Notes: generated by a model from the sequence alone, not told the origin. DNA of 64,000 bases from Epilithonimonas zeae (GCF_900141765.1 NZ_FSRK01000002.1:868001-932000); one strand, 5' to 3'; counted from the first letter of the stretch, positions 58,809 to 63,265 are shown. Program-made: numbers and translations.

Positions 58809-59324
58809 TTATTTTGTCAGTTTATCGATTGTCGATTGGATTTCCGGGTCTTCCGGAGAAATTGCATAATATTTTGCAATATCCGATTCTTGGTCAACCA
58901 CAATGTATCTCGGAATCCAGTTGAGGTCCACATAATTGTTGAAGTCATTTTTCCAACCGGAAGCGAACCAATAATTTTCTTTGTCAGTCATTCCGTGCTT
59001 TTCGAGGCTTTTATCAAAACCTTCTTTTGAGCGTTCCAGTGAAAGGAAAACAAAATCGATATTGGGGTTGTTTGCTTCCAGTTCTTTAGCTTTTGGAAAT
59101 GCTTTTAGACAGTCTCTACACCAACCGGCCCAGAAATCTAGTATCAAAACTTTTCCTTTGTGCTGATGCAAAATGTCTTTTATGGAAGTTTCTTTTCCAT
59201 TTTCATCTTGTAATTTTTGAGCGAGTGCTTCTTTGGAAAATTTGGTTTTCAGAACTTTTGGAACTTCCTGAGAAAATCCCAATTGAAACACAAATAATAA
59301 GATGTAAACTAATATCCTCTTCAT
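58809..59324 (-). CDS. Exported TlpA-like thioredoxin family protein
   Basis: A 171-residue thioredoxin-fold protein with signal peptide MKRILVYILLFVFQLGFSQ. The redox motif is WCRDC in KVLILDFWAGWCRDCLKAF, and the cis-Pro is in WIPRYIVVD. It likely reduces disulfides or hemes/cytochromes in the periplasm. The neighbours give no specific partner; the nearest cytochrome gene is at 61030, on the opposite strand. A terminator follows. Identification of the fold is sure. Confidence 0.9.
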   Translation of the reverse strand: MKRILVYILLFVFQLGFSQEVPKVLKTKFSKEALAQKLQDENGKETSIKDILHQHKGKVLILDFWAGWCRDCLKAFPKAKELEANNPNIDFVFLSLERSKEGFDKSLEKHGMTDKENYWFASGWKNDFNNYVDLNWIPRYIVVDQESDIAKYYAISPEDPEIQSTIDKLTK

Positions 59325-59485: not shown

Positions 59486-60121
59486 ATGGGAAACTCGGAT
59501 TTTATTAAAAGAAAATTTGAAAAATTTGATGAAGGTTTTTATCAGGAGCTCAAAGAATACGGGATTTTTACCTCGGTCAATGCTAAACAGGAATTGATTG
59601 CTGAAGGTGATAAGGTAAAATTTATCCCTATACTTATAAAGGGTTCGGTAAAGGTGTATAATTTGAATGACGGGAAAGAGCTTGTTTACTATTATATATC
59701 ACCAGGTGAGAGTTGCATTATGACTTTTTCTACGATATTCACCGATAAAGTGAGCCGAATCTACGCCGTCTCTGAGGAAAAATCCGATGTTCTCCTTCTG
59801 CCTGTTTCTCAATTTTTAATTTGGCTTCAGAAATATCCCATGCTGAACCAAATGTTTTTCCTGGAATATGATTCCCGATATAAGTTTATGATGGAAACAA
59901 TTAATAAAATTGTTTTCCAAAAGCTTGACCATAGGGTGTTGGAATATCTCCACGAACGAATCAGAAGAAATGGGGCTGATGCTGTGAAGGTTTCACATAA
60001 AAAGATTGCTGATGAATTGGGAACGGCGAGGGAAGTCGTAAGCCGTATTCTGAAAAAATTTGAAAAAGAGGGGTTGATTACACAAAGCCCATTGGGTATA
60101 GGAATAATTGAAAAACGGTGA
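59486..60121 (+). CDS. Crp/Fnr family transcriptional regulator
   Basis: A 211-residue regulator with an N-terminal cyclic-nucleotide-type beta-roll (EGDKVKFIPILIKGSVKVYNLNDGKELVYYYISPGESCIMTFSTIF), a long dimer helix (LDHRVLEYLHERIRRNGADAV) and a C-terminal HTH (VSHKKIADELGTAREVVSRILKKFEKEGLI). It has no N-terminal Fnr-type iron-sulfur cysteines. Its terminator overlaps the stop. It precedes the envelope operon of 60179, which it could regulate. The signal sensed is unknown: it could be cAMP-like, redox or another ligand. Confidence 0.93.
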   Translation: MGNSDFIKRKFEKFDEGFYQELKEYGIFTSVNAKQELIAEGDKVKFIPILIKGSVKVYNLNDGKELVYYYISPGESCIMTFSTIFTDKVSRIYAVSEEKSDVLLLPVSQFLIWLQKYPMLNQMFFLEYDSRYKFMMETINKIVFQKLDHRVLEYLHERIRRNGADAVKVSHKKIADELGTAREVVSRILKKFEKEGLITQSPLGIGIIEKR

Positions 60122-60140
60122 CTTTAGTCACCGTTTTTTT
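60112..60140 (+). terminator. Terminator overlapping the end of the Crp/Fnr gene
   Basis: AACGGTGACT (60114-60123) pairs with AGTCACCGTT (60126-60135) and a T-run follows. It separates the regulator from the 60179 operon. Confidence 0.85.
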
Positions 60141-60178
60141 GTAGAGAGACGTTATAATTTTGACATTAAAAGGTTAAT

Positions 60179-61018
60179 ATGTCAAAATTTTTATCATTTA
60201 TTTCTCTGTTTGTTTTAATTTTCTCTTATGCACAGGATGATTTGTTAAAAGAAATTGATACTGTGAAAACAGAGAAGCCATATTCTCCCAGTTTCAAAGC
60301 ACTGCAGGTTGTTACTGCACAATCCACAAAATTACCTGCAAGAAAAGAATTCTATCTTGACATCTCTCATAGATTCGGAGATGTAAGTGATGGGTTCAAA
60401 AATTTCTTCGGATTAGATAATGCGACCACAAAATTAGGTCTCATCTATGGATTGAAAGATTGGCTTGCTTTGAGCGCTTCCCGACATACTTACCAAAAAA
60501 CTTATGAGTTTGGTGCAAAATACAGACTTTTCAAACAAGAAAAAGAATCACCATTTGATATTGTCGGGTACAATGTTTTGGATATTAATTCTGAACTTAG
60601 AAAAGATGATTTTCCAAAGCTGGAATTCTCGGACAGATTTGCCTATCTATCTCAATTATTGATTTCAAGAAGATTCACAGAAAATCTGACGTTACAATTG
60701 ATGCCAAGTTTTGTTCATAAAAATCTCATCGAGCCAACCATTGATAGCAAAACTCTCTTTTCTACAGGCTTAGGCGGACGATATAAAATCTCGAAACGCG
60801 TTTCTATCAATGCGGAATATTTTTACAATTTCGAGGATAAAAACTTTTACAAAAATCCTTTGTCTGTAGGGATGGACATCGATACCGGCGGACACGTGTT
60901 CCAGTTGGTTTTCAGCAATTCCCAAGCTAATACGGAAACTGGTTATATCACCAATGCAACTGGTGATTGGGGAAAAGGGCATTTCTTTTTTGGATTTAAT
61001 CTTTATAGAGTTTTTTAA
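60179..61018 (+). CDS. DUF5777 family beta-barrel protein
   Basis: A 279-residue exported protein with signal peptide MSKFLSFISLFVLIFSYAQ and the DUF5777 features: FKALQVVTAQSTKLPARKEFYLDISHRFGDVSDGFKNFFGLDNATTKLGLIYGLKDWLALSASRHTYQKTYEFGAKYRLF, with alternating strand pattern, ending in FFFGFNLYRVF. The family is thought to form an outer-membrane barrel and often sits beside cytochrome and YceI genes. Here it starts the operon; the next gene begins 2 to 11 bases after the stop. A TAATTTTG box lies at 60155-60162. Function unknown, but the context points to redox metabolism. Confidence 0.85.
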   Translation: MSKFLSFISLFVLIFSYAQDDLLKEIDTVKTEKPYSPSFKALQVVTAQSTKLPARKEFYLDISHRFGDVSDGFKNFFGLDNATTKLGLIYGLKDWLALSASRHTYQKTYEFGAKYRLFKQEKESPFDIVGYNVLDINSELRKDDFPKLEFSDRFAYLSQLLISRRFTENLTLQLMPSFVHKNLIEPTIDSKTLFSTGLGGRYKISKRVSINAEYFYNFEDKNFYKNPLSVGMDIDTGGHVFQLVFSNSQANTETGYITNATGDWGKGHFFFGFNLYRVF

Positions 61019-61029
61019 AAATGCTGATT

Positions 61030-61389
61030 ATGAAAAAAACAATAAAATTAGTCATTCCGGTTTTAGGATTTTTGATAGTGATGAGTTGCGATACCAAAAC
61101 TTATGAAGATATTTCTGATGCAAAACCAATTACAGAAACCGTTACGTACAACAAAAATGTGAAAACAATCATTGATAATAATTGTGTTGTTTGTCATTCT
61201 GCAACAGGTTCTAATCCCTATTTCCCGCTGACAGATTACACGGCTGTGAAAAATTCGATTGATAATATTATGGACAGAATTCAGAGAGCTAATGGCGACC
61301 CTTTGAAAATGCCTCAGGGCGGAACATTGTCTCAGGATAATATCAATATGATCATCAAATGGAAAGCAGACGGTTTACTGGAAAATTAA
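61030..61389 (+). CDS. Cytochrome c-type lipoprotein
   Basis: A 119-residue lipoprotein with a class I heme c site. The lipobox is VMSC (Cys20); the ATG at 61030 gives this peptide, while the ATG at 61021 only adds MLI. The heme-binding CVVCH is at 52-56 and the axial Met is likely Met94 in LKMPQGG. The region ITETVTYNKNVKTIIDNNC is usual for monoheme periplasmic cytochromes of Bacteroidetes. It is anchored in the membrane and probably carries one electron. It lies between DUF5777 and YceI genes in a five-gene operon. Confidence 0.88.
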   Translation: MKKTIKLVIPVLGFLIVMSCDTKTYEDISDAKPITETVTYNKNVKTIIDNNCVVCHSATGSNPYFPLTDYTAVKNSIDNIMDRIQRANGDPLKMPQGGTLSQDNINMIIKWKADGLLEN

Positions 61390-61408
61390 TCTATAAACAA
61401 ATGAAAAA

Positions 61409-61951
61409 ATGAAAGCTTTAGTTTTTTTAATGGGCATTATTCTAACCTCGAATTTTGTTTTTGCTCAAAAATATTCTACCAAAACCGGGAAGATTACTTT
61501 TGAAGCTTCAGTCCCGCTATTTGAGGATGTTTATGCTGAGAATAACAATTCAACAGCAATTCTAAATTCTGATACAGGCGATATTGCTTCGCTTGCAATG
61601 GTTAATGGATTTACGTTTAAAGTCACTCTCATGCAGGAACATTTTAATGAAAACTATGCAGAATCTGTCAAATATCCCAAGACGAGTTTCAAAGGAAAAA
61701 TCCAAAATTTCAATAAAAATGATGTGTCAGGCAAACCAAAAGCTTACACCATTTCCGGAACGCTAAACTTCCACGGTGTTGACAATGCGGTTCAATCAAC
61801 GGCTAACGTCTATCTGAAAGATGACAAAATTGTTGTTCAGGGAAAATTTGTCGTAAAAACAGCAGATTATAAAGTTAAAATTCCAAAAATGGTGGCTGCA
61901 AAAGTAGCTGAAAATGTGAATGTCAATTATAACTTCTTACTTCAGAAATAA
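61409..61951 (+). CDS. Exported YceI family protein
   Basis: A 180-residue lipocalin-like protein with signal peptide MKALVFLMGIILTSNFVFAQ. The domain runs TKTGKITFEASVPLFEDVYAENN to KYPKTSFKGKIQNFNK and GTLNFHGVDNAVQSTANVYLKDDKIVVQGKFVVKTADYKVKIP. YceI proteins bind isoprenoid chains such as quinones, which would fit beside a cytochrome. Its stop overlaps the ankyrin start by one base (TAATG). A cytoplasmic copy is at 34555. No ligand is shown. Confidence 0.9.
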   Translation: MKALVFLMGIILTSNFVFAQKYSTKTGKITFEASVPLFEDVYAENNNSTAILNSDTGDIASLAMVNGFTFKVTLMQEHFNENYAESVKYPKTSFKGKIQNFNKNDVSGKPKAYTISGTLNFHGVDNAVQSTANVYLKDDKIVVQGKFVVKTADYKVKIPKMVAAKVAENVNVNYNFLLQK

Positions 61952-62472
61952 TGAAAAAGTATTTTACAGTAATTCTTTTAGTAATGTTTTTCGGGTTGAG
62001 TTTTTCTCAGACTAAAAATGTTTTTGATATCGCCCGAAGCGGAACTCTTGACGAAATGAAAGCTTTGGTGAGTCAAAATCCAGAGATCATTAATTCTAAA
62101 AATGAAAGAGGTTTTACACCCTTGATTTTGGCTTGTTACAGAGGCAATACCGAAGTTGCAAAATATCTGATTGATAACGTAAAAGACTTGAACTATCTCA
62201 GTCAGGAAGGAACAGCACTTTCGTCACTTTGTATTAATTATAATAAAGAGCTTGTAGAAAAAATGCTATCAAAAAATGCTGACCCTAATATTCAGGATTC
62301 TTTTGGAAATACACCACTTTTATGGGCCGTAAAAAGAGGAAATCTAGAACTCGTAAAAATACTTTTACAAAATAAAGCGGACAGAACTATAAAAGATTCG
62401 CTTGGAATTTCCGCGTTTGAATATGCCGTAAAATCTAATAATAATGAAATGATTAATCTTCTAAAACTTTAA
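61951..62472 (+). CDS. Exported ankyrin repeat protein
   Basis: A 173-residue protein with signal peptide MKKYFTVILLVMFFGLSFSQ and four ankyrin repeats: FDIARSGTLDEMKALVSQNP, GFTPLILACYRGNTEVAKYL, the less regular NYNKELVEKMLSKNADPN and GNTPLLWAVKRGNLELVKILL. Ankyrin proteins in the periplasm are often partners of redox or catalase proteins. It overlaps the YceI stop by one base and ends 4 bases before the DOMON gene, so it belongs to the operon. Its partner in the complex is unknown. Confidence 0.88.
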   Translation: MKKYFTVILLVMFFGLSFSQTKNVFDIARSGTLDEMKALVSQNPEIINSKNERGFTPLILACYRGNTEVAKYLIDNVKDLNYLSQEGTALSSLCINYNKELVEKMLSKNADPNIQDSFGNTPLLWAVKRGNLELVKILLQNKADRTIKDSLGISAFEYAVKSNNNEMINLLKL

Positions 62473-62476
62473 TAAT

Positions 62477-63226
62477 ATGTTTAAAAAAAATCTACTTTTA
62501 GGAATTCCGCTTTTTATGAGCGGTATGTTTTTTTCTCAGTTTTCTACTGGGATGGTCAGTTTGCCCACAACTTCTATGTCAGTAAAAATTGATGTTGATG
62601 CTACAAATGTCACTATGACTTTAACGGGGAGTAGTACCAGTTGGTTAGGAATTGGATTCAGTGATGAAGGGATGAAATCAGGAGCAGATGGATTTATTTA
62701 CAATAGCAGTGCTGATAGAGACTACACTTTTAATGGAGTAGGAGTAGCTCCATCGGCAGATGCTGTACAAAACTGGACAGAGCTTTCTAATATAGTCGCT
62801 TCCGGAATACGGACTTTGGTTGTAAGAAGAACTCTTGCAGGAGGAGCTGGTGATTACGCATTTACGAATGCTGCAGGAAGTCTTCCTATATTCTATGGTA
62901 AAGGAACTTCCACAGCTTTGGCATACCATGGCGTAGGAAATAAAGATTTTGCAACCTTGACATTCTCTCCTGCTTTGGCTGTTGATGATGTTAATTCTTC
63001 AGCGAAGAAAATAGGCGTTTATCCTAATCCGGTAAATGATGTTTTGAATTTTACTAATGCGGATAAAATCAGTTCGGTTAAAATTTATGATTCGACTGGA
63101 AAACAAGTGGTGTCTCAAAAATCTGTTGTAAGTCTGGATGTTTCTCAATTGATGAAAGGTGTTTATTTCATAGAATTTGAAAATATAGACGGCTCCAAGA
63201 GTTATGAAAAGTTAATCAAGAATTAA
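62477..63226 (+). CDS. Secreted DOMON-domain protein with T9SS sorting domain
   Basis: A 249-residue exported protein. Signal peptide MFKKNLLLGIPLFMSGMFFS. Residues 35-165 form a DOMON (DOH-type) domain: VTMTLTGSSTSWLGIGFSDEGMKSGADGFIY, NWTELSNIVASGIRTLVVRRTLAGGAGDYAF, PIFYGKGTSTALAYHGVG. Met66 in EGMKSGAD and His151 in AYHG are where the heme b ligands of cellobiose-dehydrogenase-type DOMON proteins are located, so a heme is likely. The last 75 residues are a T9SS sorting domain (GVYPNPVNDVLNFTNADKISSVKIYDSTGKQ to SYEKLIKN), so it reaches the cell surface. It ends the operon, followed by a terminator. Electron exchange with the surroundings is inference. Confidence 0.87.
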   Translation: MFKKNLLLGIPLFMSGMFFSQFSTGMVSLPTTSMSVKIDVDATNVTMTLTGSSTSWLGIGFSDEGMKSGADGFIYNSSADRDYTFNGVGVAPSADAVQNWTELSNIVASGIRTLVVRRTLAGGAGDYAFTNAAGSLPIFYGKGTSTALAYHGVGNKDFATLTFSPALAVDDVNSSAKKIGVYPNPVNDVLNFTNADKISSVKIYDSTGKQVVSQKSVVSLDVSQLMKGVYFIEFENIDGSKSYEKLIKN

Positions 63227-63230
63227 AACA

Positions 63231-63255
63231 AAATCCTCAGAATTTCTGAGGATTT
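63231..63255. terminator. Bidirectional terminator after the redox operon
   Basis: AAATCCTCAG (63231-63240), loop AATTT, CTGAGGATTT (63246-63255), then a T-run. It also serves the convergent purine nucleoside phosphorylase gene. Confidence 0.88.
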
Positions 63256-63265
63256 TTAATTTTAT

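Follow-up and report, generated by a model that had tools for sequence, protein, structure and literature searches.

In a 64,000-nucleotide stretch of the Epilithonimonas zeae genome (GCF_900141765.1, NZ_FSRK01000002.1:868001-932000; hereafter the window), five co-directional genes on the plus strand (60179-63226) encode, in order, a DUF5777 protein, a cytochrome c, a YceI protein, an ankyrin-repeat protein and a DOMON protein that ends in a sorting domain of the type IX secretion system (T9SS). We consider it probable that these genes form a Crp-switched envelope redox operon in which a surface heme-b carrier has been added to a phylum-wide core. Window proteins were assigned to families using Pfam and NCBIfam profiles. 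Successive genes are separated by 2, 19, -1 and 4 bases, and hairpins flank the operon, one between it and the upstream crp gene and one after it (Table 1). A first-pass annotation of the window had described a tight operon with gaps of 20 bases or less and several one-base overlaps; the gaps are as described, but there is a single such overlap, between the YceI and ankyrin genes.

A gene block inherited whole, with a conserved putative operator

The order of regulator, DUF5777, cytochrome, YceI, ankyrin and DOMON genes is repeated in Epilithonimonas, Kaistella, Chryseobacterium and one Myroides genome, and the neighbourhood is therefore conserved beyond this strain; the DUF5777 protein of the window is 96% identical to its counterpart in E. 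arachidiradicis. Three separate searches found the regulator, DUF5777 and DOMON in an identical set of 9 of 23 Epilithonimonas genomes, and because the three share exactly the same genomes, the block is acquired or lost as one piece. The proposal that the five genes are one conserved module is thus borne out by their order in several genera and by all-or-none presence within the genus.

DUF5777 was present in 153 of 395 sampled Bacteroidota genomes (about 39%) and in 227 of 396 genomes of the order. We compiled 118 non-identical Bacteroidota DUF5777 loci, picked to span genera rather than sampled at random, and refer to individual loci by number (L). Near DUF5777, these loci contained YceI (112 of 118), a monoheme cytochrome c (110) and an OB-fold protein (PF12869; 57). 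DUF5777, YceI and the monoheme cytochrome c form a phylum-wide Bacteroidota core, onto which ankyrin and DOMON are added as a pair in Weeksellaceae and some Flavobacterium. The pair occurred in 35 of the 118 loci, adjacent and with the ankyrin gene directly upstream in every case, at positions that varied: after YceI in Weeksellaceae and in L080 and L081, ahead of the OB-fold gene in L039, L041 and L111, and ahead of DUF5777 in L063, where the cytochrome and YceI genes are divergent. All 29 regulator-linked loci in this set carried both ankyrin and DOMON.

The searchable literature held no description of the five-gene set, no report linking DOMON to T9SS that is relevant to it, and no paper that names DUF5777; most subscription journals lie outside that search, so the absence is weak evidence. 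An RNA sequencing study of Riemerella under iron limitation that features YceI, cytochrome c and ankyrin (PMC5429918) was rejected as a prior description, as these are separate loci there.

The upstream Crp/Fnr gene had been proposed as the regulator of the operon, and a conserved operator now supports this. The gene adjoins the operon in all nine operon-bearing Epilithonimonas genomes, and linked copies keep both the recognition helix and Cys77, a candidate sensor by its conservation. A GTGA-N6-TCAC palindrome lies between crp and DUF5777 in 28 of 30 crp-linked loci and in 0 of 89 unlinked DUF5777 loci, and the two linked loci that lack the exact palindrome (L027 and L033) are each apparently one half-site mismatch away. 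The -7 box TAnnTTTG follows 22-23 bases 3' of the palindrome in 28 of 28 loci, even though its separation from the start codon differs greatly between loci. The operator centre lies about 41-43 bases 5' of the inferred transcription start, which is the class II Crp position. E. coli CRP reads GTGA with the recognition helix R-E-x-x-x-R, and the helix of the regulator carries this motif. The combined operator and -7 box pattern matched one site in the genome, but because a reversed control pattern matched two, the single match proves nothing; we dropped genome uniqueness as evidence, and the evidence for the operator is its conservation across genomes.

The DOMON protein, its counterparts and the probable ankyrin partner

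The DOMON protein is a predicted heme-b binder. Met66 and His151, 85 residues apart, are invariant across 39 relatives with identities down to 27%, and we assigned them as putative ligands by this conservation. For HYP1, a plant CYBDOM ferric reductase, heme b binding through M90 and H174, with a spacing of 84, has been proposed (PMC10784544). The window protein scored 31.0 bits against the DOMON profile (PF03351), just below the cut-off of 32.7, and relatives scored above it (41.7 and 45.0); comparison of the domain sequence with solved structures gave short matches only, mostly to WD-repeat designs. The structural model matched the cytochrome domains of cellobiose dehydrogenase (Z 12.9 over 145 residues, root-mean-square deviation 2.9) and pyranose dehydrogenase (Z 12.5), and two further heme-b folds, ethylbenzene dehydrogenase gamma (Z 11.7) and subunit C of nitrite oxidoreductase (Z 11.1). 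The top match was the DOMON domain of dopamine beta-hydroxylase (Z 14.4), which has neither heme nor the ligands (PMC4846438); because this match is heme-free, the fold alone is no proof of heme, and the Met/His pair is the stronger argument. The earlier identification of a DOMON domain with Met and His ligands is supported. Compared with known heme-b DOMON domains (cellobiose and pyranose dehydrogenases, ethylbenzene dehydrogenase gamma and HYP1), the fold is the same and the ligand spacing is close to that of HYP1, but here the domain is bacterial, carries a T9SS tail, is fused to neither a dehydrogenase nor a cytochrome b561, and shares its operon with genes for YceI, a cytochrome c and a barrel.

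Export by T9SS, likewise proposed at first pass, is supported by a signal peptide visible in the sequence and by a type A sorting domain in the tail, recognized both by profile (PF18962, 52 bits; TIGR04183, 49 bits) and by fold (T9SS cargo domain 8glk, Z 10.5).

In other DUF5777 clusters the T9SS tail is attached to different domains. A plastocyanin-like domain precedes it in L098:3659-4255, L103:5507-6094 and L055:4222-4797 (PF00127 above cut-off in L098 and L103, with L055 assigned by sequence and profile), and L048, L069 and L077 encode Rieske proteins next to the core (Pfam in L048 and L077). In the Flavobacterium loci L037, L038, L042 and L043, one T9SS protein occupies the position of the ankyrin-DOMON pair, with an adjoining ApbE gene. 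In L038 and L043 this protein is DUF2271-like, scoring below the Pfam cut-off (PF10029) and compared by a profile built from the domains only, excluding the shared T9SS tail. A possible flavinylation motif reads TGAT in L037 and L038; at the corresponding alignment position L043 has TGST, and L042 lacks the motif. DUF2271 is a proven ApbE substrate in other systems (PMC8238504). Because the motif is inconsistent and PF10029 falls below its cut-off, we regard ApbE modification of the DUF2271-like T9SS proteins as no more than possible. By their sequences, these proteins suggest that the surface redox protein on the T9SS tail is exchangeable (heme, blue copper or DUF2271-like). Such swaps, the c-heme motif and the DOMON Met/His pair all agree with the redox theme of the first-pass annotation.

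The ankyrin gene also keeps company with redox proteins elsewhere. All 25 Weeksellaceae DUF2271 loci examined (L150-L174) have an ankyrin gene immediately upstream of the gene for the DUF2271 flavoprotein, and most have PepSY downstream. Because of this adjacency, and because the ankyrin protein Cj1386 functions in heme trafficking to catalase, we suggest by analogy that exported ankyrin proteins serve redox proteins; the association is a correlation only, but it offers a concrete hypothesis for their role. No heme protein is encoded next to the ankyrin paralogue of this genome (L147), and ankyrins go unmentioned in the flavinylation papers that we read.

Table 1 Features of the operon and its control region, in window positions.
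Feature	Position	Strand	Evidence
Crp/Fnr-family regulator	59486..60121	+	HTH_Crp_2 46 bits, cNMP_binding 36 bits; REVVSR recognition helix; invariant Cys77
Hairpin with short T run, possible crp terminator	60110..60139	+	-17.1 kcal/mol, z -5.1; same bases as operator
Palindrome GTGACTTTAGTCAC, proposed regulator operator	60118..60131	+	Overlaps crp stop codon
-7 box (Bacteroidota) TAATTTTG	60155..60162	+	TAnnTTTG after palindrome
DUF5777 exported outer-membrane beta-barrel	60179..61018	+	PF19089 300 bits; 12 strands; AlphaFold predicted local distance difference test (pLDDT) 89.6
Lipoprotein monoheme cytochrome c	61021..61389	+	Cys23 lipid; CVVCH 61183-61197; Met97 61309-61311
Exported YceI lipocalin	61409..61951	+	PF04264 39.2 bits (cut-off 23.7)
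Exported ankyrin-repeat protein	61951..62472	+	Ank_2 99 bits
DOMON protein with T9SS tail	62477..63226	+	Pfam, NCBIfam, AlphaFold, fold match
DOMON domain, residues 23-167	62543..62977	+	AlphaFold pLDDT about 93; fold matches
Met66, putative heme-b axial ligand	62672..62674	+	Invariant
His151, putative heme-b axial ligand	62927..62929	+	Invariant
T9SS type A C-terminal sorting domain	63005..63223	+	PF18962, TIGR04183, fold match
Intrinsic terminator after operon	63230..63256	+	12-pair stem, -14.8 kcal/mol, z -5.4

The envelope core and competing explanations

Judged by its motifs, the cytochrome is a lipid-anchored His/Met class I cytochrome c: Cys23, Cys55, Cys58, His59, Met97, Pro98 and Trp114 are kept at at least 97% in 117 relatives, and the window protein itself scores below the Pfam cytochrome cut-offs. 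YceI lipocalin structures contain isoprenoids, some of them ubiquinone-8 (PMC9113575), and by analogy the YceI protein encoded here may be a quinone carrier. These two are the most constant partners in DUF5777 loci, which would suit an envelope antioxidant system: quinol held by YceI would quench lipid peroxyl radicals, and the cytochrome and heme partners would reduce it again, much as in the BcnA/LcoA system of Burkholderia. There the YceI lipocalin BcnA and the cytochrome b561 LcoA protect envelope lipids (PMC9113575), and there too a YceI lipocalin is genetically tied to a cytochrome. The Burkholderia cytochrome is a membrane cytochrome b561, however, whereas the operon encodes a cytochrome c lipoprotein and no cytochrome b561, and adds a barrel, an ankyrin protein and a surface DOMON protein; BcnA/LcoA includes neither a surface heme protein nor a Crp-type activator. 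We consider an antioxidant function unlikely.

The DUF5777 model is nearest in fold to FapF, KdgM, NanC and further barrels. Across 55 diverse relatives 17 residues are invariant, His64 and His239 included, which exceeds the needs of a general porin and suggests a ligand site or an enzyme, not a simple pore. The first-pass annotation had proposed a path from a quinone-like carrier to the cytochrome and the surface heme protein, as a conduit across the outer membrane or to an extracellular acceptor; in the trans-outer-membrane version, electrons would pass from the cytochrome through the barrel to the surface DOMON protein. The operon order, the combination of periplasmic and surface redox proteins and the swappable surface domains are in keeping with that idea, and MtrCAB-type porin-cytochrome conduits likewise comprise an outer-membrane barrel, a cytochrome and a surface redox protein. 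Those conduits have a large barrel and multiheme wires, but here there are 12 predicted strands and one c-heme. A 12-strand barrel is too narrow to sheathe a folded cytochrome, and the operon encodes no multiheme protein, with a single CxxCH among its genes. Because twelve strands leave no space for a folded cytochrome, an MtrCAB-like conduit is unsupported; both of its defining parts fail, and we consider a conduit in the porin-cytochrome sense decidedly unlikely.

It is more improbable still that the operon has no redox role and that DOMON and its substitutes bind ligands or sugars at the surface, with the core serving outer-membrane assembly or a lipid function. Sugar binding is also known for DOMON domains, enzymes as well as sugar porins are found among 12-strand barrels, and CBM96 and Reeler proteins can occupy the T9SS position, but the Met/His pair and the c-heme motif are invariant and copper and Rieske proteins are among the partners. 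Least probable of all is heme acquisition, in which DOMON would serve as a secreted hemophore and heme would be relayed inward by the ankyrin protein and the barrel: DOMON is a predicted heme-b binder exported to the surface and an ankyrin protein is tied to heme trafficking elsewhere, but the operon has no TonB-dependent receptor, DUF5777 has no plug, the regulator is Crp-type, the swapped T9SS proteins bear copper or possibly flavin domains instead of heme, and the cytochrome and YceI are left unexplained.

We favour the Crp-switched redox operon, in which the regulator, to judge from the position and conservation of its site, would bind the operator and activate a five-gene transcript. The core of barrel, lipid-anchored cytochrome and YceI, the last possibly carrying a quinone, would handle electrons on the periplasmic side, and the exported ankyrin protein would be a probable maturation partner. 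In DOMON, Met66 and His151 would coordinate a single heme b, and once delivered by T9SS the protein could act at the surface as a one-electron carrier or reductase toward an external partner, for example ferric chelates or oxidants. We infer an electron path from YceI-bound quinone to the cytochrome and on to DOMON. Several observations weigh against this reading. Besides the heme-free top fold match, the T9SS position is held by a protein that is not clearly redox in L095 (CBM96), L115 (Reeler) and L123 (unassigned); no cytochrome b561 was found among the operon genes and the adjoining open reading frames examined; the operon encodes no quinol-oxidising membrane protein of any kind; and DUF5777, with its 12 predicted strands, is unable to sheathe the cytochrome.

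The five-gene operon would belong, as a variant, among extracytosolic electron transfer modules. Flavinylated DUF2271/PepSY/ApbE systems (Meheust 2021) are likewise extracytosolic redox modules with swapping of flavin and heme carriers, and in Weeksellaceae they too have an ankyrin gene beside the redox protein; they carry flavin where we predict heme b, and a PepSY protein is absent from the operon. This genome gave no PF10029 match for DUF2271, and the [ST]GA[ST] motif is absent from the DOMON protein. A broader proposal is that Bacteroidota share an undescribed redox core (DUF5777, YceI, lipoprotein cytochrome c and often the OB-fold protein) onto which T9SS loads an exchangeable surface 'cartridge', carrying heme b, flavin or blue copper, whose dedicated maturation partners are the exported ankyrins; we put this forward tentatively and with considerable doubt. 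The analysis gives the phylum-wide envelope cluster built on DUF5777 a proposed function that can be tested, and a T9SS-exported heme-b protein, if the prediction is true, would connect type IX secretion with redox chemistry outside the cell.

Further features of DUF5777 loci

An inverted repeat (ATTTTGACAT...ATGTCAAAAT, window 60156-60190, z -4.1) spans the DUF5777 start codon; it is broken in the near relative L023 and was rejected as a control element. A TlpA-like thioredoxin gene (window 58809-59324), divergent from crp, was encountered only in Epilithonimonas-type loci. In L078:4371-9449 and L082, DUF5777 and the cytochrome occur without YceI, beside a 4Fe-4S protein, an NrfD protein and a second cytochrome c (Pfam in L078). 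In the Flavobacterium clusters L080, L081, L067 and L121, the OB-fold gene is preceded by apparent sigma/anti-sigma genes and a gene for an 844-residue TonB-plug protein (Pfam in L081 only), an arrangement that perhaps serves surface signalling.

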